A stretch of DNA of 39,674 nt. Source: Pseudomonadota bacterium. GTDB taxonomy: Bacteria; Bdellovibrionota; Bacteriovoracia; Bacteriovoracales; Bacteriovoracaceae. Positions within the stretch are counted from its first letter, which is position 1; the number at the start of each line of letters is the position of its first letter. The notes below the pieces were generated by a model that made no database searches, was not told the origin of the DNA, and was given only the letters and a program-made list of their open reading frames with translations. The stretch covers positions 1 through 39,674 of the forward strand of contig JAIYDC010000082.1 in assembly GCA_027487685.1 (NCBI GenBank), read 5' to 3'. The translations under genes were made by a program, and so were the position numbers. Shown here piece after piece: positions 1,139 through 31,403 of the stretch.

Positions 1139-3988
1139 TTAGAGGTTTTTAGCAAAAGGTGTCGGTCCCTTATCGTAGCCAAATTCCTGCACCCACTTTC
1201 TAATTGCTCGGATCTGGCGCTTCGGATCATTATCCAATACTCCGTCAACTGCAGGTATCAAGTTACCACTGCCATCATCCCAATACGCAGGCATGCTCGT
1301 ATAAGGTATGAACGACTGGGGATTAGCGATCCAAGCCTCCATCCATTCAGTACGGATACGATTTTTCGCATAGTGAAGATTTGGAGCCTGAGGGGCATCA
1401 CTCGTGAAGCCTAGAGAATGGCAAGAAGTACAAGCGAGCTCGTTCCAAATTCTCTGTGCTGCCTCACGCTCTCCCGGTTCCCACTCTATTTGAACTGGGG
1501 CTTCGTAGGTAGGCTGGTTGGCCCCGCCCTGGAATCCAGTCACAAGCTTATTGAGCTCAGCGTGGGCGAACGGGTATGACGGCATCCTTACGTTAACGTA
1601 AGGACGAATCGGATGGACGTTCTGAAGGAAATCATAGAGCCAGTCACTCTTTACGCGCAATCCTTCCTTCGTGAGGTAAGGAGGTCCATAGTTCTGGTCC
1701 TCAAAAGCCTTGGACAAGCTTCCACCGATGCCATCAATCTGGTGACAACCGTAACAGTTGTACTTGTTAGCGACTTTCATCCCATCGTAGTATTGCTTTT
1801 CACCTGCAGTTAGACGCTTTTGACCCTGAAGAGGAATCTTATCTGATACCAAGCCAAGAATGACTCCGACTATCGACTCAATCTCTTCGTCTTTGAGGTA
1901 AAAATTCGGCATCTTGTTTAAATCTTTGAAAGGCTTTGGAACACCTACGTCCCAGATGCTCGGGAGCTTTAGGTGCTGAGTGAGCCATCCCTGACGAGTA
2001 TGTGGAACATGCTTTTGCTGACCAAAACCGAACTGCTCTACAGGCTTTGAGCCTTCCTTCGACAACTCAGGTCCGATCTGAGGAAGATCACCATCGAAAC
2101 CATGAATCTCATGGCACGAATAGCAGCCGTACTTGTTGATCGAACGCTTAGCGAGTTCGGTAGTACGTTCTTCATCACTCATTTTCTCGAGCTTGGCCTG
2201 GGCTGCATTAATCGTTTCGAAAGCTGAGAAATAATCTGTCACAAGGATTTCGTCGCGAATTTTTTTATCGAGTGCCGGGAAGGTGAGCTCCTCGAATTGC
2301 TTATTCCGTGAAGCTAGTAAGAAAGCGGCCATGTCATTCGCTTCCTTATCTGAAAGGCGGAAAGACGGCATGATCGAAGTTGGATCATAATGTTTTGGCT
2401 GCTTAAGCCAAGATACAAGCCAGTCTGGATTTACTTTAGATCCAAGGTTAACAAGGTAAGGTCCTTTACGCTGGCCGACGGCGTTCCACTTATCATCAAT
2501 GCCTTCAATCTGGTGGCAACCGACGCAGCCGACTGTTTCCATCAGCACTTTACCATTTTCAGCGTTCCCACCTGCGTAACGAGCAAAAGGCTTGTACTCC
2601 TGCGATGTCCTGATGATGTATTCGGAGATAGCGTTGACCTCGGCGATGTTCTTTTTCTTAAACTCAGGCTTCGAATTATTGGCCTGCTCAAAGAAGTGAG
2701 GCATGCGCGAGCGTGGATTAAACGCGAACGGTGACCAGATCCAATTCCGGATCCACTCAGTGGCTTTAACCTTAGAAGTGATTTTGTAAAGACTTGGTCC
2801 AGGCTTGTTGTCATTTAAATGCTGCCACCCTTCGATTTTGTGACAACCATAGCAACCGTAGTTCTCGATGAGCTGACGACCCTTGTTCAGTTTATCGGCC
2901 ATAGGCAGACGTTCCTGATCCTTATGGCACTTCATGCACATACCCTCGGTATGCTGAAGTGGGATCATCGGCTGAGGAACCTTATGCGGCTCGTGCCAAT
3001 GGTACTTTTCCTTCCACTCTTTCTCCTGCTCCTTATTCTGAGGAATATGGGCCGGGGAATTGAAATCGTTGACTCGGTCTCCAACTCCGCCGTGGCAGGA
3101 GGTACAGCCGAAGTCCTTGGCAGGGTGTGCAGAGTTAACACCTACGGCCAGAGTTCCGACCTTTGGGTGTGTCTTATAGGGATTGGCCTGGTCTTCGTAG
3201 CCAGGACGATCGATAAACACGTGACAAGTCGTACAACGATCAATTTTAGGAACTTGCTGGAAGTAGAAGTCACTTGTTGCATTAGTAATAACGTACTGGC
3301 GAATTTTGATTGTAGGGTCAAGGAAGTCGATGAAAGGTGCGTTCCGCAATGCCCAGACTGGAGACTTCTCGGTACCCGCCATCGCCTGGAGCATGCGCTC
3401 TTTATCGCCGACAAGGCTTTTCAGTTCCTTCTCCGCAGAAGTCTTATCCGCCATGATAACTTTAAGCTCTTCTTGGGCCTTAACTTCGTCGGCCAGGAGG
3501 GCCTTAAGGTTATCTTTACCCTCTATTTCCTTCTTTTTATATTCATCGAAAGTAACCTTGATCTTCTTGGCTTCTGCCGGATGATTTTCCATCATCGCGT
3601 GTTCGTACTTGAACTGATTTTCGGATGCTTGAGAACCGTTAACACCGTTTACCATGTTCTGCACATAGATCTTACGCTGGATCTCGGTAATTCGGGAGTT
3701 GATCTTCTCGATCTTCTCCTCCTGGGATTGCAAGCCCTTCTCAGCATTAGCAATCTTCTGCTTAATTTCCTTGAGCTTATTGCCATCCATCGAGCCGTCG
3801 ATTTCGCGGATTTTCTCCTGAATCTTCTGCTTTTCGATGTCCAGGGCCTTTATCTGTACGGCTTTCCAAGGACGGATATAGTCATCGAAGACCATCCAGA
3901 TAACTACGAGTAGGAAGACTACGGAGACGAGGGCAAAGATCTTATTCAGAACTTTGGTGTCGTATGCCATTCCGGGTTCACGTTTCAT
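1139..3988 (-). CDS. membrane-anchored octaheme c-type cytochrome of a Rieske/cytochrome b complex
   Basis: This is the likely electron-accepting cytochrome c subunit of the quinol-oxidising complex encoded just upstream. The 949-residue protein has one N-terminal membrane helix (about 14-36), a long charged coiled coil (about 45-205), then eight CxxCH haem motifs starting at Cys252, 295, 351, 379, 488, 622, 745 and 853. The last five motifs are each followed by a Met-Pro (residues 429, 540, 693, 802, 899) that is the likely distal Met ligand of a class I mono-haem domain, so the C-terminal part looks like five tandem cytochrome c domains. The first three haems lack that pattern. The start at 3988 has AAGG nine bases upstream; Met7 at 3970 is an alternative. 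It is last in the operon, 24 bases after the cytochrome b gene, and is followed by a strong terminator. Confidence 0.9.
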   Translation of the reverse strand: MKREPGMAYDTKVLNKIFALVSVVFLLVVIWMVFDDYIRPWKAVQIKALDIEKQKIQEKIREIDGSMDGNKLKEIKQKIANAEKGLQSQEEKIEKINSRITEIQRKIYVQNMVNGVNGSQASENQFKYEHAMMENHPAEAKKIKVTFDEYKKKEIEGKDNLKALLADEVKAQEELKVIMADKTSAEKELKSLVGDKERMLQAMAGTEKSPVWALRNAPFIDFLDPTIKIRQYVITNATSDFYFQQVPKIDRCTTCHVFIDRPGYEDQANPYKTHPKVGTLAVGVNSAHPAKDFGCTSCHGGVGDRVNDFNSPAHIPQNKEQEKEWKEKYHWHEPHKVPQPMIPLQHTEGMCMKCHKDQERLPMADKLNKGRQLIENYGCYGCHKIEGWQHLNDNKPGPSLYKITSKVKATEWIRNWIWSPFAFNPRSRMPHFFEQANNSKPEFKKKNIAEVNAISEYIIRTSQEYKPFARYAGGNAENGKVLMETVGCVGCHQIEGIDDKWNAVGQRKGPYLVNLGSKVNPDWLVSWLKQPKHYDPTSIMPSFRLSDKEANDMAAFLLASRNKQFEELTFPALDKKIRDEILVTDYFSAFETINAAQAKLEKMSDEERTTELAKRSINKYGCYSCHEIHGFDGDLPQIGPELSKEGSKPVEQFGFGQQKHVPHTRQGWLTQHLKLPSIWDVGVPKPFKDLNKMPNFYLKDEEIESIVGVILGLVSDKIPLQGQKRLTAGEKQYYDGMKVANKYNCYGCHQIDGIGGSLSKAFEDQNYGPPYLTKEGLRVKSDWLYDFLQNVHPIRPYVNVRMPSYPFAHAELNKLVTGFQGGANQPTYEAPVQIEWEPGEREAAQRIWNELACTSCHSLGFTSDAPQAPNLHYAKNRIRTEWMEAWIANPQSFIPYTSMPAYWDDGSGNLIPAVDGVLDNDPKRQIRAIRKWVQEFGYDKGPTPFAKNL

Positions 3989-8057: not shown

Positions 8058-10016
8058 ATGAAAAAGTTCGTTTGCCTCATCTTGTTTTTATCCTTACCGG
8101 TTTGTGCAGCTGGCCCTGAAATCGTTAACCGCGAGGACGGTCAAAATATAACCTCTCAGATCCGGGACCTTGAAGTTCAAGAGATGCTTCGGCAAACAAG
8201 TGAATTCGACGAGTGCAGAAGGAAAAATCAGTTCACAGCAGGAGATTCTCCTGCTGTCCGGGATCAGAAGACGAAAGCGGCGCAAGAGTGTTTTCGAAGA
8301 AAAGTTTCGGATCTCCGAGACCCTCGCAGGCTTCAACAGCTATCAGAACTCTTGAACCTTCAGCAATACGGCCTCGTTAAAAGTAAGAACGTTCGGGATA
8401 TTCAAAACTTCCTTGATGACAAGATGTACAAGGCGATGACCGGCGTTGATCGCCAGGAAGCCGACAAGAGAAAGCTGATCGACAGTCTGAAATTTAAGAA
8501 TAAGAAGCATCTGGATCAGGCCCTCTTTATCGATCTCTATAAAACGCAACTTAGCAAGAACGCACTGTATGAGGTTTCCCGATTCTGCTTTGAGAGTTTT
8601 CGTAAGGAAGGTGCGACCTCAACTGGAAAAAGCTTTGGTGAATACTGGAAGGAACACTTCCAAGAGAACCTACAAGTTGCCGACGTAACGGATACTGGAA
8701 GTGCGGTCGACTTTGGGGCCATGACGGATCCGGAAAAGAAAGAGAAGGTCTATGAGGACATCTTTAGAAGTCTCAGTATTGGAGGACAAAACGGTCTGGA
8801 ACGAGAAAAGCTATCACAATTTTTTATGACTTGCGGGGCTATGATCCGGCCTCTTTGTGATGGGTTCAAGGATTCGGCGCGGCAGAATATGCAGGCGAAC
8901 CGATCAATGGTAGGACTCGGTGCTGCCACGGCCACTCCAGCAACAGGGCAGCCGGCCACACGAACTGCAACCCCTGCAGCTACAGATCCAGGAGCTGAAG
9001 CGCCCGAAGCGCAGGCCCCGGAGGCGACGGCGCAAAGTGCTGGAGGACCACGAAAGGGTGCGGTGGCATGCCTCGCTCAAAACAAGGTGATGGAGATTAA
9101 GAAGGCCTTGGCGGACACTCAAAAGATCCGCGAACAATTCGACCAGATGGCCGAGAACCCACAAAGCGCAGCTCTTGCCTTAATAGGCGGCAAGATATTC
9201 ACACCAGGACAAGACGGAGCTGAGACGCTCGATAATCTTTCAAACTACACTTCCGCAGATGTCCTTGAAGGTGGAAGCAGGCAAAATGATCAGGCACAGT
9301 CGGCAGCTCAGCGCTGCAGCAGTAACCCGGAACTTGCTACGTGCGAGAACTTCTTTGTGAATCAGGAGCAACTCGATCGTGCGAAACATGACGTCGATAT
9401 GGAAATGACTCTGAAGCGGGAAGTGGAAATGGCAAGAGTTCGTGCTCTAAAAGCGCAGGACCAGCAAAAGCTCGAGGACTATCTTAGAGAGCAAGGATAC
9501 TTTCCGCTCTTGCAAAGGCTACAGGCCGGGAACCTGACTGACGAGCAATTGGTTGAGGAAATCGGGGCACAATTTGAAGCCAAGAAGATGGCCACCTTAG
9601 CGCAGATAAACCGAAACCTCGGCTCTCGGCAGGTCAGAGCTGAGGCGAACCCGGATGAGATCCGAAGGGCCTCAGAGACCTCTATAAAGCAGAGTAAGGA
9701 AGAGCGTGCACGAATGGCCCAGGTTGTCCTTTTTAACAACATCATTACCTCTCACCTAGAACTCACGAGGCGCGACGCTCAGGGAAACAGAACCAGTGCT
9801 GGACGGAACGTAAACGCCTGGAGAAAAGAAGAGGAGGGACTATCTCGATCACAGATAAATACAGGGCTATTTGCTAATCTTCGCGCCTCAGACTCAGAAC
9901 AGAACCCTAATGGCATAGGTGCCAACGAACAACTCGGAGGTATGGAGCTAATTGATCAGCTTCTGGGAAAACAAGGTGAAGAGCGCGCAAGTGGTAATAA
10001 CACAAGACCTAGATAG
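8058..10016 (+). CDS. large secreted or periplasmic protein, function unknown
   Basis: A 652-residue protein with a clear signal peptide (MKKFVCLILFLSLPVCAAG). The mature part is mostly helical and highly charged, with a low-complexity Ala/Pro/Thr/Glu linker at about 290-330 separating two helical halves, and scattered cysteines that could form disulfides. I recognise no domain. No ribosome-binding site is visible; the upstream sequence is instead a sigma-28-like -10 box, consistent with a nearly leaderless mRNA. Its 3' end overlaps the oppositely oriented gene at 10009 by 8 bases, with no terminator between them. Confidence 0.8.
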   Translation: MKKFVCLILFLSLPVCAAGPEIVNREDGQNITSQIRDLEVQEMLRQTSEFDECRRKNQFTAGDSPAVRDQKTKAAQECFRRKVSDLRDPRRLQQLSELLNLQQYGLVKSKNVRDIQNFLDDKMYKAMTGVDRQEADKRKLIDSLKFKNKKHLDQALFIDLYKTQLSKNALYEVSRFCFESFRKEGATSTGKSFGEYWKEHFQENLQVADVTDTGSAVDFGAMTDPEKKEKVYEDIFRSLSIGGQNGLEREKLSQFFMTCGAMIRPLCDGFKDSARQNMQANRSMVGLGAATATPATGQPATRTATPAATDPGAEAPEAQAPEATAQSAGGPRKGAVACLAQNKVMEIKKALADTQKIREQFDQMAENPQSAALALIGGKIFTPGQDGAETLDNLSNYTSADVLEGGSRQNDQAQSAAQRCSSNPELATCENFFVNQEQLDRAKHDVDMEMTLKREVEMARVRALKAQDQQKLEDYLREQGYFPLLQRLQAGNLTDEQLVEEIGAQFEAKKMATLAQINRNLGSRQVRAEANPDEIRRASETSIKQSKEERARMAQVVLFNNIITSHLELTRRDAQGNRTSAGRNVNAWRKEEEGLSRSQINTGLFANLRASDSEQNPNGIGANEQLGGMELIDQLLGKQGEERASGNNTRPR

Positions 10017-11310
10017 ATTTAATCCAAATAAAAACTCGGTTTTTTCCAGGCTGCTCGCCGCCTTGGGAGCGACTCTCGTATATGCTCGCCTCGCTGAGAG
10101 TCGATACTTTCGACATGAAGTCTTTCAGACTCTTTGATGGAACTTGAAGGTTAAAATACATGCCTCCGGGGATCTGCATACCCGGCTTTACGTTATCGAC
10201 TTGCTGTATACCATAATTCTTCATGAGGGGGAGGATTCCATCCCGTACCGCCGCCGGATCAACTGATGCCATCAGAATCCTATAAGCCTTTTTGTTAGAG
10301 ACCGCGTAAGAGCTATCTCGGTAGCCACCCTTTTTATTCTCCTCATATTCTGACTGCTCTGTCTCGGCTTCTCCAAAGCTCTTAGGAACATCATCGACAG
10401 AATCAAGGACCACGACGTCAGACTCTGGGTCATAGCGGGAGCCAAGCCTCTCGTCAGAGAAAACCGTCTGCGCCTCAAGCCGCTCGAGCTCATCGAGCTC
10501 CTTATTAGAAAGGTCGATTTGCTGCTTGGCCAGCAAGTCTTGTTCTTGGTAGGAAAGAGTCTTATCGAGCCAGAAGAAGTTCGGCTCAAACAGCGTGATC
10601 TTGTTGATTAGGTAGTCCTCGTACCACTTGTTCGTATTCTTCAATGCGAAGACTACAACACTCAGGATAAGGAGAAGGACGATGACCTCTTGCAGAAACT
10701 TGAGCTGCCTTTTGAAGGCAGTCTTTTTGCGGAAGTTCTCAAAATCGACCTTGAGTGCGAGGATATCTTTGCGCAGCTCCTTAACGAGATTTGGCCAGTC
10801 CGGGTAAAGGGTGACTTCCATATTGGCCAGGATATCGTCCTCAAAGGTACCCTTGGCCTGAGCGGCAGTTCCAAGGACTCCAATCAAATTGTCGAAACGG
10901 AGAAAGAGATTTTTAGAACTCACATTGCTGATCTGAAAATTGTCATTTATAAGGTCCTCGTAGAGCGGATAGACTTTTATGAGGTGATTGCGTAGCACGG
11001 TCGAGACATACTTCTCCGGTAGATCGAACCCAAAAGCAATCTCGCGGACAGACTTACCCTGGTGGACAAAGGTGAAGGTAATAAATTTTTCAAAGAGCCA
11101 ATTGAGCCAGGAGATCAGAGGCCCTGACTTAGCTATCTTCTTCGCATACTCAAATCGCTCTCCGAGCTCGGCGGGCGCAATTTGGTCCTTAAAGAAGGAT
11201 TCCCAGAATCCACTGAAGGATTCGGCATATCGGCCCTCCCAAGCAATAGAGTTGATATCGAGGTCTAGCCAGTCCTTAAATCGTTCGAAATCGGATTTTG
11301 TAAGCATCAT
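10009..11310 (-). CDS. single-pass membrane protein with cytosolic helical domain and extracytoplasmic domain
   Basis: A 433-residue protein. Residues 1-205 are helical and probably cytoplasmic, including a helix-turn-helix-like stretch (VREIAFGFDLPEKYVSTVLR, about 94-113). One membrane helix follows at about 208-225. The rest would be outside: an acidic linker (about 280-335), then a small alpha/beta domain ending GGMYFNLQVPSKSLKDFMSK and RVFIWIKSI. The layout (cytosolic DNA- or protein-binding part, one helix, sensor-like outer domain) resembles anti-sigma or transmembrane regulator proteins, but no family is recognised. Met1 and Met2 are adjacent; either could start. It converges with the secreted-protein gene with an 8-base overlap. 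Confidence 0.8.
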   Translation of the reverse strand: MMLTKSDFERFKDWLDLDINSIAWEGRYAESFSGFWESFFKDQIAPAELGERFEYAKKIAKSGPLISWLNWLFEKFITFTFVHQGKSVREIAFGFDLPEKYVSTVLRNHLIKVYPLYEDLINDNFQISNVSSKNLFLRFDNLIGVLGTAAQAKGTFEDDILANMEVTLYPDWPNLVKELRKDILALKVDFENFRKKTAFKRQLKFLQEVIVLLLILSVVVFALKNTNKWYEDYLINKITLFEPNFFWLDKTLSYQEQDLLAKQQIDLSNKELDELERLEAQTVFSDERLGSRYDPESDVVVLDSVDDVPKSFGEAETEQSEYEENKKGGYRDSSYAVSNKKAYRILMASVDPAAVRDGILPLMKNYGIQQVDNVKPGMQIPGGMYFNLQVPSKSLKDFMSKVSTLSEASIYESRSQGGEQPGKNRVFIWIKSI

Positions 11311-11615: not shown

Positions 11616-12041
11616 ATGTCGGACGTATCAGGGACACACCCTAGCTTGGCCGCAGGTAAGGCAGCGATGGAGAAGAGGCAAGCGTTCGAGCTCCGAAAGC
11701 TCAGCGATTCCTTCGAAAAGGAAGTGACTGAAGTTCGTGAAAAAAATGAAAAAGAAATATCAAAAATTAAAAAGGACTACGAGGTCCTGATTGGAAAAGA
11801 CAAGACCGAATCGGAGGTAAAACTTTCGAAGGTTCGGCAACAGTATAGCAGGACGATCGAAGAGGAAACGAAGCGTTTCGAACAACTTCTTAAAGATCTT
11901 AAGGAGTCAAATGCTGCTCGTTTTGAGGAGACAAAGATTTCCCATGAGCAACAAGCTGCGAACCAAGAATTGAAACATCGTGAGTACCTCGAACGTGCCC
12001 AGATGAAATTTGAACAGCAGAAGGCGAAGATCGAAGCATAG
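11616..12041 (+). CDS. coiled-coil protein
   Basis: A 141-residue, highly charged protein (rich in Glu, Lys, Gln) predicted to be one long coiled coil from about residue 20 to the C terminus. It has no signal peptide and no membrane segment, so it should be cytosolic. AGGGAAAGG precedes the ATG. The next gene, 38 bases downstream on the same strand, encodes a FliG-like protein, so the two are probably co-transcribed. A structural or adaptor role beside the FliG-like partner is inference only; no family is recognised. Confidence 0.75.
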   Translation: MSDVSGTHPSLAAGKAAMEKRQAFELRKLSDSFEKEVTEVREKNEKEISKIKKDYEVLIGKDKTESEVKLSKVRQQYSRTIEEETKRFEQLLKDLKESNAARFEETKISHEQQAANQELKHREYLERAQMKFEQQKAKIEA

Positions 12042-12079
12042 TTCATTCCCAAGACATCGCGATCCAGAAAGGAGAATAG

Positions 12080-12511
12080 ATGAGTCAGAAGAATTCAGAA
12101 AACGGCGTCTTTATAAACGGGAAGAATCAGGTCATTGAGCTTCTGCAGCGGATGGACGCAGCGGATAAGGCCCGATTGCTGAAAAATCTTCGTATCAGAA
12201 ATCCTATACTTGCCAAAGAGCTCACTGAATCGTGTATTTCATTTGAAAGTATCTGGGACCTTGATGACGAAAGCCTCAAGACTGTAGTCTCTCAGGTTCA
12301 GCCGACAATCCTTGGTCTGGCACTCAGTTTAGTCCATGTGAAAAATCAGCGCCGTGTTCTTTCATTGATTTCCAGGACAGTCGCGCTAAAGGCATTCGAT
12401 GTCATGCAAAAAGACCTAACTGGAAACCGCAACGAATGCATCCGAGCTCAGCATAAAGTTCTTGAACTCGCGCTGAACCTTAATCGCAATCGCATCATTC
12501 AATTCTACTAA
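12080..12511 (+). CDS. short stand-alone FliG-like protein
   Basis: A 143-residue protein that follows the pattern of the FliG middle-to-C-terminal region. Residues 16-50 (VIELLQRMDAADKARLLKNL onward) match the last helices of the FliG middle domain, and IWDLDDESLKTVVSQVQPTI (58-77) matches the conserved LDD-S-L----REV segment. LGLALSLVH matches the LALALKGA helix, and the following region matches the torque-helix area. FliG is normally about 330 residues; the N-terminal domain and the last C-terminal helices are missing. In my alignment the acidic pair of the torque helix is reduced to Lys-Asp. An AAAGGAG precedes the ATG. No flagellar genes lie nearby. It may bind a rotor-like partner or be repurposed; function is not known. 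Confidence 0.7.
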   Translation: MSQKNSENGVFINGKNQVIELLQRMDAADKARLLKNLRIRNPILAKELTESCISFESIWDLDDESLKTVVSQVQPTILGLALSLVHVKNQRRVLSLISRTVALKAFDVMQKDLTGNRNECIRAQHKVLELALNLNRNRIIQFY

Positions 12512-12933
12512 GAGAGGAGTTTTCTAAACTCTGTCTCGAGCTGTGATGAGAACTGCTCTTCCCCGATAACAGTGGGGTGAATGAGTCGATTCTCGGCAAT
12601 AAGATTTGCCGTGTTTTGGAAACGTTCAATCATGGTACGACTCAGCTGGGTGATCCAGTCAGGGGATTCGCGAAACACCTCTTCGAAATTCGACGCCGGT
12701 ATTCCTACAAGTTCCCCACGATCCAGTGCAATCGCCGAGTATGCATAAGGAACTGTCGGGATCATTGCCGCTTCACCAATCACATCACCGGCCTTTGCTA
12801 AAAAAAAAGGAACAAGCCGGTCTCGAGACGATTTTAGACAAAGGACCTCTCCCGATTTGACGAGAAAGAGCTGAGTCGCCGGATTCCCCTCACGGAAAAT
12901 GACCGTATGACGTTCGAAGCTACGGTCTTGCAT
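12508..12933 (-). CDS. cyclic nucleotide-binding domain protein
   Basis: A 141-residue protein made essentially of one CAP-type cyclic-nucleotide-binding beta-roll: IFREGNPATQLFLVKSGEVL, then GDVIGEAAMIPTVPYAYSAIA corresponding to the phosphate-binding cassette. No DNA-binding domain follows, unlike CRP/FNR. The cassette lacks the Arg-Ser/Thr pair expected for tight cAMP binding (it reads VPYAYSA), so ligand binding is uncertain. I chose the ATG at 12933 because AAGGA lies 8 bases upstream; an earlier in-frame start at 12987 would run further into ppx. It is last in the long minus-strand operon, overlaps ppx by 14 bases, and overlaps the convergent FliG-like gene by 4. Confidence 0.8.
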   Translation of the reverse strand: MQDRSFERHTVIFREGNPATQLFLVKSGEVLCLKSSRDRLVPFFLAKAGDVIGEAAMIPTVPYAYSAIALDRGELVGIPASNFEEVFRESPDWITQLSRTMIERFQNTANLIAENRLIHPTVIGEEQFSSQLETEFRKLLS

Positions 12934-13855
12934 AAAGGAATTCCTTCCGAACCTTCCCTTCGAGGAGAGTCCCGAAGCGAAGCCCATAGGTCGAGATGGT
13001 AAGCTCTTTTACGAGGAGCCGATGGATAAGATGGTATACGAGATTAAGTCCACCGCGGATACTTTGAGATCTTTTTTGAAGAAAGGGAAAGAGATCGAGA
13101 AACTGTTCAGGAGAAAACTCGGAGTACTTTTTGAACATGCTGTCGATGTCCTCTCCTTTGAGGACGAGACCATGAACGTCGTCTTCAACAAACTCCTTGC
13201 GCAGTAGATGCATGTTGCCAAGAGAAGTCACAGTTCCAGCGACACAGAAAAGCTCTTTCCCTTGGAATTTGTCGAGGTCTGTACGGTAGTCGAGAAAGAT
13301 TTTCTGAAGATTCTGCACGAAGAGCTGGTCGTTCAGCCATTGAGTAGATCGGACCGCGCCAATCGGGAGGCTGATAGATTCGAGAATCTGAAAGTTCTTC
13401 GTATTAACGCGGATCAACTCTGTCGAGGCGCCTCCTACATCCATGATAGTGATAACGTCGGTTTCGAAGCGAGTGTCGAAAAGGATCCCTTTGGTTGAGA
13501 AATAAGCCTCTCCTTCAGAGCTAATGACGGAGGTCGAAACGCCGAGTTCAGTTTCAATACGTCGAAAGAAGTCTCCCGCATTTTGGGCAACTCTGGCGGC
13601 TTCAGTGGCAGTCGAGATTATTTTTTCACGAGGTATTCCATGCAGGTCGCATTCCTCGGCGTAGCTTTTAATTGCATCGAAAGTAGCGGCCATCGAGTCG
13701 GGGTGAAAAGCCCGGTTCTTGTCGAGTTCGCGTCCGAGAGAAGTGATTTCACTTCGTTTTACGATCTCTCGAAGCTTTCCGCTGGAAAAGTCTCCGATCA
13801 AAAGAAGAACACTGTTTGAGCCAACATCGATGGAGGCACGGATGTCTTTGATCAT
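12920..13855 (-). CDS. exopolyphosphatase/guanosine pentaphosphatase (Ppx/GppA family)
   Basis: A 311-residue ASKHA-fold phosphatase that hydrolyses polyphosphate and/or pppGpp. Phosphate-loop 1 is DVGSNSVLLLI near the N terminus; phosphate-loop 2 is MDVGGASTELI (about residues 138-148). It has the two-domain short form without the C-terminal HD domain of E. coli Ppx. The start is the ATG at 13855, which overlaps the mtnA stop as ATGA; the open frame extends further upstream, but only into mtnA. Ppx and GppA cannot be told apart from sequence alone. A link to stringent or polyphosphate signalling is expected. Confidence 0.88.
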   Translation of the reverse strand: MIKDIRASIDVGSNSVLLLIGDFSSGKLREIVKRSEITSLGRELDKNRAFHPDSMAATFDAIKSYAEECDLHGIPREKIISTATEAARVAQNAGDFFRRIETELGVSTSVISSEGEAYFSTKGILFDTRFETDVITIMDVGGASTELIRVNTKNFQILESISLPIGAVRSTQWLNDQLFVQNLQKIFLDYRTDLDKFQGKELFCVAGTVTSLGNMHLLRKEFVEDDVHGLVLKGEDIDSMFKKYSEFSPEQFLDLFPFLQKRSQSIRGGLNLVYHLIHRLLVKELTISTYGLRFGTLLEGKVRKEFLYARP

Positions 13856-29738: not shown

Positions 29739-31367
29739 TTACATGTTTAAGTTAACGCCGGCAGGCTTAACAATTGTGAGCAAGTTCTGAAAGGCTTGAG
29801 TCACCTGGAGCGCCATCTTATGGCCAGCACTCGACTCCACTTTTTTAATTTCGCCGTAATTGTCGTAGGCGACATTGATCTTGCCGACTTTTTCCATCTC
29901 GATCTCAACCGGCTTACCAAGAGAATTGTACTTGAAAGCGAGTACACGACGTGAGGTTTCTGATTCCTGGTCAACCATCTTCGAGATCTTACCCTTCGTA
30001 TCGTAAATCAGGAAAACAGTCTTACCAAGGTTATTCATGGCCTTGACCAAATTACCCTTGGCATCGTATTCAAACGAGGTTGTACCTTCGTTGTTGACGA
30101 CCTTCTTAATTTTCTTAATCGCGGCGTCGTATTCGATGTTGACGAAATCACCTTTTGTCGACGATTTCTTAGTGAGAAGACCATCACTATTGTACTCAAA
30201 ATTTGTGACATGGTTACCCCGGGCAATCTTCAGTGGTAGAGAATTCTCTCCAAAGATTGTATCGGTTTTGATGCTATTAATGTCTGTCAGAATACGGTAA
30301 GTATAACGGGCACCATCGGCAGTAGTCTTCGTTTCGTACTCATAACGGTTTGCAACCGGTTTCCCATCGAAGCCAGGCTTCGTGACAGTTGTCCAATAAT
30401 GATTCTCAGCATTTTTGGGATCGGCCCCATACTGATACTTTGTCTGCTCTCCGTTTCGGTCGACAACCTCAGTAACGAAGAAAGTATTATGATCGTAAGA
30501 GATTTTCAAACTAGTCTTGTCACCGTAACGGATCTGGGAAAGATTGTGGGATTTATCATAGCCATACTCGTAGGCATTGTCGCCTATGTCATTAGAGTAT
30601 GACAGGTTAGACTCATCGTACTTGTAGGATGCCTTTTTATCCCCAGAAGACCAAATCTCTTTAACCAGCCCACCCGGGTACCACGAAAAGAATATCTGCT
30701 TGGCCTGGGAATCTTTGATCGACTCGAGTTTTCCTTCCTTGTAGTTGAAACCAACGAAGTAGCCGGATTTATCGGTGATCTTCGTAAGCTGACCTGTCGG
30801 ATTAAAGAAGTCTGCTCGTCCGTCAGTATGGACCCTCCGGTAGCCATCTTTAGTCACAAAAAGCTCCTGAGGTCCGCGGTCGTTAGAGTAAAGTACTGAC
30901 CCTGTCGCAACTGTCGCCTGAACTCCGAAGTTTACAGAGTAGGTGTGCCGAAGTTCAGCATTATTGGCAAGTTTTTGGATGAGATCGCTTGAAGACTTGT
31001 CCGAAAGGGCGGTCTTCTTCTTCATTTCAGTCACGATCTTTGTAGCAGCAGCGACAGCATCGACCGGAGTCTTAGGCGTAAAACGTGTCTTGGCGCCTGA
31101 GCCATGCTCGTGGACGATGATCGAACCGTCGGCGGAGATCTCCAGTTTGGTCTCGAATTCACTACCCCAGCCGAATCCGAACCAGCCTACATCCGTGGAC
31201 TTTGAATTGTACGTCCGAGTAATTTCAAGTTTTTTACCACCGCCGGGCACCACAATATCTGTGTAAGAGATGTAGAAGTTCCCGTTTTTGAGATTGACTC
31301 CAGCATGGGCCAAGGACGTGGCAAGGAGCGCAACCAGAGTGAGAGAGAATCCTTTCATAAACATCAT
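29739..31367 (-). CDS. secreted RHS/YD-repeat protein, compact form
   Basis: A 542-residue protein with a signal peptide (KGFSLTLVALLATSLAHAG), then a DUF6531-type start (VNLKNGNFYISYTDIVVPGG, LEITRTYNSKS, GWFGFGWGSEFE), then many YD-type repeats such as YKYDESNLSYSND, YDKSHNLSQIRYG and FEYDAKGNLVKAMNNLGKT. It lacks the conserved RHS core box and a C-terminal toxin of long Rhs proteins, and ends at about residue 542. ATG 31367 is chosen because AAGGTGG lies 4 bases upstream. A sigma-28-like promoter lies just before it. It could be a surface or exported adhesion-like beta-cage; there is no evidence for toxin activity. Confidence 0.8.
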   Translation of the reverse strand: MMFMKGFSLTLVALLATSLAHAGVNLKNGNFYISYTDIVVPGGGKKLEITRTYNSKSTDVGWFGFGWGSEFETKLEISADGSIIVHEHGSGAKTRFTPKTPVDAVAAATKIVTEMKKKTALSDKSSSDLIQKLANNAELRHTYSVNFGVQATVATGSVLYSNDRGPQELFVTKDGYRRVHTDGRADFFNPTGQLTKITDKSGYFVGFNYKEGKLESIKDSQAKQIFFSWYPGGLVKEIWSSGDKKASYKYDESNLSYSNDIGDNAYEYGYDKSHNLSQIRYGDKTSLKISYDHNTFFVTEVVDRNGEQTKYQYGADPKNAENHYWTTVTKPGFDGKPVANRYEYETKTTADGARYTYRILTDINSIKTDTIFGENSLPLKIARGNHVTNFEYNSDGLLTKKSSTKGDFVNIEYDAAIKKIKKVVNNEGTTSFEYDAKGNLVKAMNNLGKTVFLIYDTKGKISKMVDQESETSRRVLAFKYNSLGKPVEIEMEKVGKINVAYDNYGEIKKVESSAGHKMALQVTQAFQNLLTIVKPAGVNLNM

Positions 31368-31403
31368 AAATCCACCTTTTGCAGACATAGACAACCCTGA
31401 CAA

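Follow-up and report, generated by a model that had tools for sequence, protein, structure and literature searches.

A stand-alone FliG_C protein and its fixed-length helical partner: a possible flagellar accessory in Bacteriovoracales

Introduction

C-ring formation is driven by the stacking of FliG ARM motifs, both inside one subunit and from one subunit to the next (PMC11870540). FlgY and FlbB contain a long dimeric helix together with an ARM domain that resembles the ones in FliG and MgtE. As described in PMC11870540 and PMC13023049, their ARM domains form a hub around the MS-ring and their helices are the spokes. An E-ring has been observed in B. bacteriovorus (PMC13023049), and Bdellovibrio HD100 has two FliG copies according to PMC3539863. 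Extra copies of FliG are already known, and an existing Pfam family covers FliG_C proteins that stand alone.

Here we describe a pair of genes in a 39,674-nt stretch (the window) of a Bacteriovoracaceae genome of 3.79 Mb in 149 contigs (G000). The pair encodes a stand-alone FliG_C protein (A) and an all-helical protein (CC). Over its whole length A has the ARMC and C-terminal fold of FliG (PF01706, TIGR00207; 1lkv, 3ajc, 3hjl). Unlike FliG, it has no FliG_N, FliG_M or torque charges, is encoded outside any flagellar operon and scores under the FliG equivalog cut-off. By analogy, the nearest known counterpart of A and CC appears to be the FlgY/FlbB E-ring. FlgY, FlbB and MotE (MgtE_N, PF03448), as described in the papers cited above, unite a FliG-like ARM domain and a long helix and are linked to flagella, as A and CC appear to be. 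However, each of them is one chain with a signal peptide or membrane helix and is periplasmic, whereas A and CC are two ORFs without an evident signal, the N termini of both lacking a hydrophobic stretch (by eye). The N-terminal domain of MgtE (PF03448) superposes on part of the A C-terminal domain (Z 4.4-6.4), and 3 of 35 A members match MgtE_N at E ≤ 0.001; FliG matches far better, however, and A has no transporter or CBS part. In the open-licence literature we found no description of the A-CC pair.

Results

The genomes of 84,980 species were scanned with a motif pattern specific to family A, which distant relatives may escape. The scan returned 132 stretches, 58 of them encoding an A relative, from records labelled Bacteriovoracaceae, Bacteriovorax, Halobacteriovorax, Bdellovibrionales and similar. 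With the window this gives 59 loci, in which A is present by construction. In the window, CC (11616..12041, 141 aa) and A (12080..12511, 143 aa) lie on the + strand with a gap of 38 nt, as the two ORFs that the initial annotation had proposed. AAGGAG at 12069..12074 (+), read from the sequence and placed 5 nt before the ATG of A, is its probable ribosome-binding site. CC is directly upstream of A on the same strand in 56/59 loci, 8-64 nt away, an arrangement that makes a common transcript likely. Scans for promoters (1 found, 1.4 expected) and terminators (3 found, 1.6 expected) gave numbers near chance, and an Rfam search returned no match.

The earlier remark that flagellar genes are absent nearby holds for the 18 window proteins that were scanned. 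The gene at 12508-12987 (-) encodes a stand-alone cyclic-nucleotide-binding domain protein; it is convergent with A, the two stops overlapping by 4 nt, and is kept in 53 of the 59 loci. On the other side, 10009-11310 (-) encodes a protein of 433 aa that has a membrane helix (by eye), matches no Pfam family and adjoins the pair in 55/59 loci. Flanking gene order is conserved in most loci. A thiolase gene, which is not in the window, sits between the membrane-protein gene and CC in 41/59. The conserved neighbours encode cytochrome bc proteins, a HEAT-repeat protein, thiolase (named by eye), a Crp-like protein, Ppx/GppA and an IF-2B family protein; a search of these genes for functional hints gave no lead. 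Elsewhere in the window, 1139-3988 (-) encodes a 949-aa protein with several cytochrome c domains that adjoins cytochrome b genes, and 29739-31403 (-) a 554-aa protein with DUF6531 and RHS repeats.

The likeness of A to FliG, first noticed in the sequence alone, was borne out by both profile and structure comparisons, either of which could have contradicted it. FliG_C (PF01706) is the sole Pfam family that A matches above the curated cut-off (41.8 bits, E 1.4e-10; cut-off 23.3), and all 35 aligned A relatives match it at E ≤ 0.001. A phmmer search of the PDB with A ranked FliG chains first (1lkv, E 1.7e-5), and a profile from 35 A relatives improved the PDB FliG match to E 1.6e-14. The AlphaFold model of A (mean pLDDT 87.4; residues 1-11 unsure) has nine helices, and its best Foldseek match is FliG 1lkv (E 4.2e-6, TM 0.78 by query length). 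By VIA-align, whose list lacks other folds without this being evidence against them, the model superposes on 1lkv with Z 15.5 over 139 residues, covering residues 186-326 of T. maritima FliG. The C-terminal domain superposes on 1qc7 (Z 13.3, rmsd 1.6) and on 8ucs, in which FliG is bound to MotAB (Z 13.2, rmsd 1.8). Because the rmsd to 1lkv is high for the whole model (6.2) and low for the single domain, the angle between ARMC and the C-terminal domain must differ from that in 1lkv. A contains all of ARMC and of the C-terminal domain except about 10 tail residues. The proposed N-terminal truncation stands, as both FliG_N and FliG_M are missing, but the proposed loss of the end of the C-terminal domain is ruled out, the tail apart, by a superposition that reaches residue 326.

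A full-length fliG, with FliG_N, FliG_M and FliG_C, was found elsewhere in the same genome. It adjoins genes for FliF, a FliI-type ATPase, FliJ and a 174-aa protein with likeness to MgtE_N. We read the sequence of this last protein (L097 11297-11821; MgtE_N 25.2 bits, just under the cut-off of 25.9) as probably the genome's own FlgY/MotE. A tree built from 59 sequences groups all 21 copies of A, including a degenerate one from genome G118, in one clade (UFBoot 100). It separates the FliG_C paralogues as a whole from FliG (support 100), the branching among paralogues being unresolved. Against the NCBI FliG equivalog TIGR00207, A scores 37.3 bits, below the cut-off of 226.7. That A is a FliG paralogue, as had been suggested, is supported by Pfam, Foldseek, VIA-align and the tree; its own clade and its score far below the equivalog cut-off support the further suggestion that it was repurposed. 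G000 encodes a second stand-alone FliG_C paralogue, B (contig C146; L006 1417-1848, +), behind a nucleotide-sugar epimerase-like gene (named by eye). B resembles A in length and in its FliG_C domain (about 69.3-69.5 bits) but falls on a separate tree branch and has no CC alongside.

A evolves much faster than FliG. Across the compared genomes, identity over ARMC and the C-terminal domain is 67-96% for FliG, whereas that of A drops to 31-41% at family distance, so the constraint on A is weaker or different. Within the genus, changed codons between A and its G006 counterpart are 70 synonymous versus 11 non-synonymous; dS is saturated and allows no ratio. Conservation was judged from an alignment of 35 rows (the window and 34 of the 58 loci), in which rows cut at tblastn match ends are shortened there. 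L138 and L151, in which the match range crosses a stop, were left out, and other rows were omitted to keep the set small. The motif I-N-G-[KR]-x-Q at the start of ARMC (A residues 12-17; 12113..12130, +) has invariant G14 and Q17, with I12 and N13 conserved in more than 90% of rows. Together with N41, Q90 and R99, it sets A apart from FliG.

The torque residues of E. coli FliG are K264, R281, D288, D289 and R297. The charge in these five columns is constant in 13/13 FliG rows. In 20 A rows, R281 and D289 are never kept (0/20 each); a basic residue stands at R297 in 3 rows and at K264 in 12, and an acidic one at D288 in 7. A residues 53-143 (12236..12508, +) are thus a FliG C-terminal domain, by superposition on 1qc7, without the torque charges. 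In B, R281 is lost in 11/12 rows and D289 in 12/12. The initial annotation had also considered motor coupling; in the sense of torque transfer this finds no support, since columns constant in FliG are scrambled in A, and a torque-generating role for A is weakened.

CC, given to AlphaFold as one chain, is modelled as a single helix spanning residues 9-140 (11640..12035, +; mean pLDDT 92.5), that is, 132 residues or 12 x 11. The alignment of 26 CC sequences (the window and 25 of the 58 loci) contains zero gaps from residue 7 to 138, with identity to the window CC going down to 24%. Mean hydrophobicity has its top period at 3.67 residues (11/3), with a power of 66.5 compared with at most 50.4 in 300 column shuffles; the power at the heptad period of 3.5 is 1.2. 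CC is therefore predicted, from model and periodicity, to be a hendecad coiled coil, and 12 hendecads as a helix measure about 20 nm. The constancy of length in a variable sequence suggests that the distance itself may be under selection. CC has about 42% charged residues (59/141) and a narrow hydrophobic stripe. Its profile gives weak apolipoprotein A-I matches (best E 0.00023), and 1 of the 26 members matches Pfam Apolipoprotein (E 2.8e-5); we ascribe these matches to the 11-residue period common to both.

The pairing of A with a coiled-coil protein proved conserved but not obligatory. CC is deleted with A intact at L111, L115 and L119, the last retaining an apparent remnant of the CC start. 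Searches of the corresponding flagellated genomes, G011, G008 and G025, found no CC elsewhere. The Lon tree makes sisters of two of these genomes (support 97) and joins the third to a genome that has CC (support 99), which implies at least two deletions of CC. An obligate A-CC complex is weakened by these three loci.

A occurs throughout Bacteriovoracales. It was found at E ≤ 1e-20 in 114 of 129 genomes examined in the order. The 15 genomes without A include 11 that have a FliG_M match but are only 59-87% complete, and four from one genus (G119-G122) that also lack FliG_M. Of the 77 genomes with a completeness of 90% or more, A and FliG_M occur together in 73, neither occurs in three, A alone in one (G118) and FliG_M alone in none. 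The Fisher p of 5e-5 for this co-occurrence treats related genomes as independent and so exaggerates the link. FlhA and FliM are both absent from G118-G122. Since FlhA is missing from G125 (99% complete), in which FliM and FliG_M are present, the absence of a lone marker can be a gap. We put down to incompleteness the missing markers of G108 (56% complete), which keeps A without FliG_M, FlhA and FliM, and of G132 (85% complete), which keeps A and has FlhA without FliM and FliG_M. In 22 genomes from other families of the phylum, no A match was stronger than E 9.5e-8. One possible relative, X_G049 from another family, is not placed stably by the tree (support 19) and lacks an adjacent CC; it was not counted as A.

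The G118 locus is contiguous, with about 58 nt between A and the thiolase gene, and CC is gone. Its A has changed 7 of the 13 residues invariant in the A alignment, has lost the I-N-G-[KR]-x-Q motif except G and has the longest A branch (1.59). In the Lon tree, which omits G026 and G123 because the returned locus in each is a paralogous Lon, G118 lies outside the clade (support 98) holding G119-G122. As the tree separates them, two losses of flagella seem to have occurred, one accompanied by loss of both A and CC and the other by loss of CC and decay of A. The neighbour gene at 10009-11310 is likewise undetected in G119-G122. The association of A with flagella rests on two loss events, and the genera concerned may also have lost predation and other traits.

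FliG_C occurs in other architectures in the phylum. Two proteins of 224-229 aa (L091 5798-6487, -; L092 6112-6786, +) contain FliG_C, assigned by Pfam, and behind it, as part of the same chain, a short stretch of predicted coiled coil; by analogy, these fusions hint that FliG_C and a coiled coil work together. A PilZ-like part precedes a C-terminal FliG_C in three proteins of 366-378 aa (L088 6283-7383, L089 6176-7312 and L094 6375-7481, all -), and a cyclic-di-GMP input to the FliG_C module is possible there. The PilZ match of L088 (20.4 bits) is just under the cut-off, and the others were recognized by eye. Proteins of about 260 aa carry a weak FliG_C followed by MORN_2 repeats (L082 6171-6941, -; L083 6482-7264, +; L084 5235-6020, -; by Pfam for L082). 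In other families of the phylum, proteins of 628-799 aa combine an N-terminal part and a membrane helix (by eye) with a C-terminal FliG_M/FliG_C (L085 6545-8944, -; L086 6544-8898, -; L087 5242-7128, +; L093 6616-8838, -; by Pfam for the first three, by likeness for L093). From their sequences these look like FliF-FliG-type fusions and could serve a second motor.

Discussion

A appears to be a hitherto undescribed accessory component of the flagellar motor in Bacteriovorax relatives. We put at about 45% the probability that it arose by an old duplication of the rear half of FliG and became a flagellum-linked accessory part in Bacteriovoracales. A scaffold role, which the initial annotation had raised, is plausible and is the one we favour. 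Several observations speak against this reading. A and CC sit among housekeeping genes, away from flagellar genes; three flagellated genomes keep A but have lost CC; A changes much faster than FliG; and the presence of A in G118 without flagellar markers would not be expected of a purely flagellar part unless A is decaying there.

If A is a flagellar accessory, the lack of FliG_N and FliG_M would leave it with no known FliF anchor and without most of the FliM-binding part, and it would not be built into the C-ring as FliG is. Because ARMC is kept while these two parts are missing, the simplest placement would be stacking of its ARMC on the ARM domains of FliG or of another A. A would then dock on the rotor or next to it and exert no push on the stator. 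CC may oligomerize into a stiff rod of about 20 nm, a strut or spoke capped or positioned by A; where CC is missing, A would dock alone or with another partner. Since the genome owns a FlgY-like gene and an E-ring is seen in B. bacteriovorus, A and CC would be an addition to the E-ring and not a replacement. A more specific and rather unlikely arrangement is a cytoplasmic hub and spokes on the Bacteriovoracales rotor, in which FliG-derived ARM domains form or join a ring from which fixed-length rods of 12 hendecads radiate. The pair would then match the periplasmic E-ring of FlgY/FlbB with a cytoplasmic structure made from two genes, reusing the force-bearing half of FliG after loss of the force-bearing residues.

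A and CC could instead make up a cytoplasmic scaffold that has nothing to do with the flagellum and acts, for instance, in cell polarity, prey attachment or division; their loss along with flagella would then reflect a change of lifestyle that removed many genes together. The lack of flagellar genes nearby fits this idea, as do the retention of a copy of A in G118 without FliG_M, FlhA and FliM and the failure to detect the conserved neighbour gene in G119-G122. But all 73 near-complete genomes with FliG_M have A, the G118 copy is degenerate and has lost CC, and the entire fold of A is that of FliG; on balance we consider a non-flagellar scaffold somewhat less likely than a flagellar role. A might also face the stator, its C-terminal domain binding MotA as a spare or regulatory rotor surface, a clutch or a decoy. 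The superposition of this domain on MotAB-bound FliG would agree with that, and PilZ-like FliG_C proteins in the same group are what one would expect if FliG_C modules tune the motor. The five torque columns, charge-constant in every FliG and not kept in A, make such a stator-facing role unlikely.

It is quite unlikely that CC is a lipid-binding amphipathic helix, with 11-residue repeats as in apolipoprotein or synuclein, that brings A to the inner membrane. Its period and the apolipoprotein matches point that way, but the period alone explains the matches, and the narrow stripe and high charge fit a soluble coiled coil better. Least credible is that A is a functionless, decaying fragment of a duplicated fliG. 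It does lack two of FliG's three parts, yet its retention in most genomes of the order, its synonymous excess, its invariant residues and its conserved genomic place lead us to reject a pseudogene.

Should A be a motor part, as we tentatively favour, the fixed length of CC offers a structural prediction that could be tested by cryo-tomography. The set of FliG_C paralogues, stand-alone or joined to PilZ, MORN repeats or coiled coils, may then tune motors. In Bdellovibrio, stator genes have been connected by a published screen with switching between obligate and facultative predation (PMC11323537), so accessory motor parts in the group may matter beyond swimming. A mostly predatory group would have built a rotor accessory by duplicating the force-carrying half of FliG and dropping its charges.
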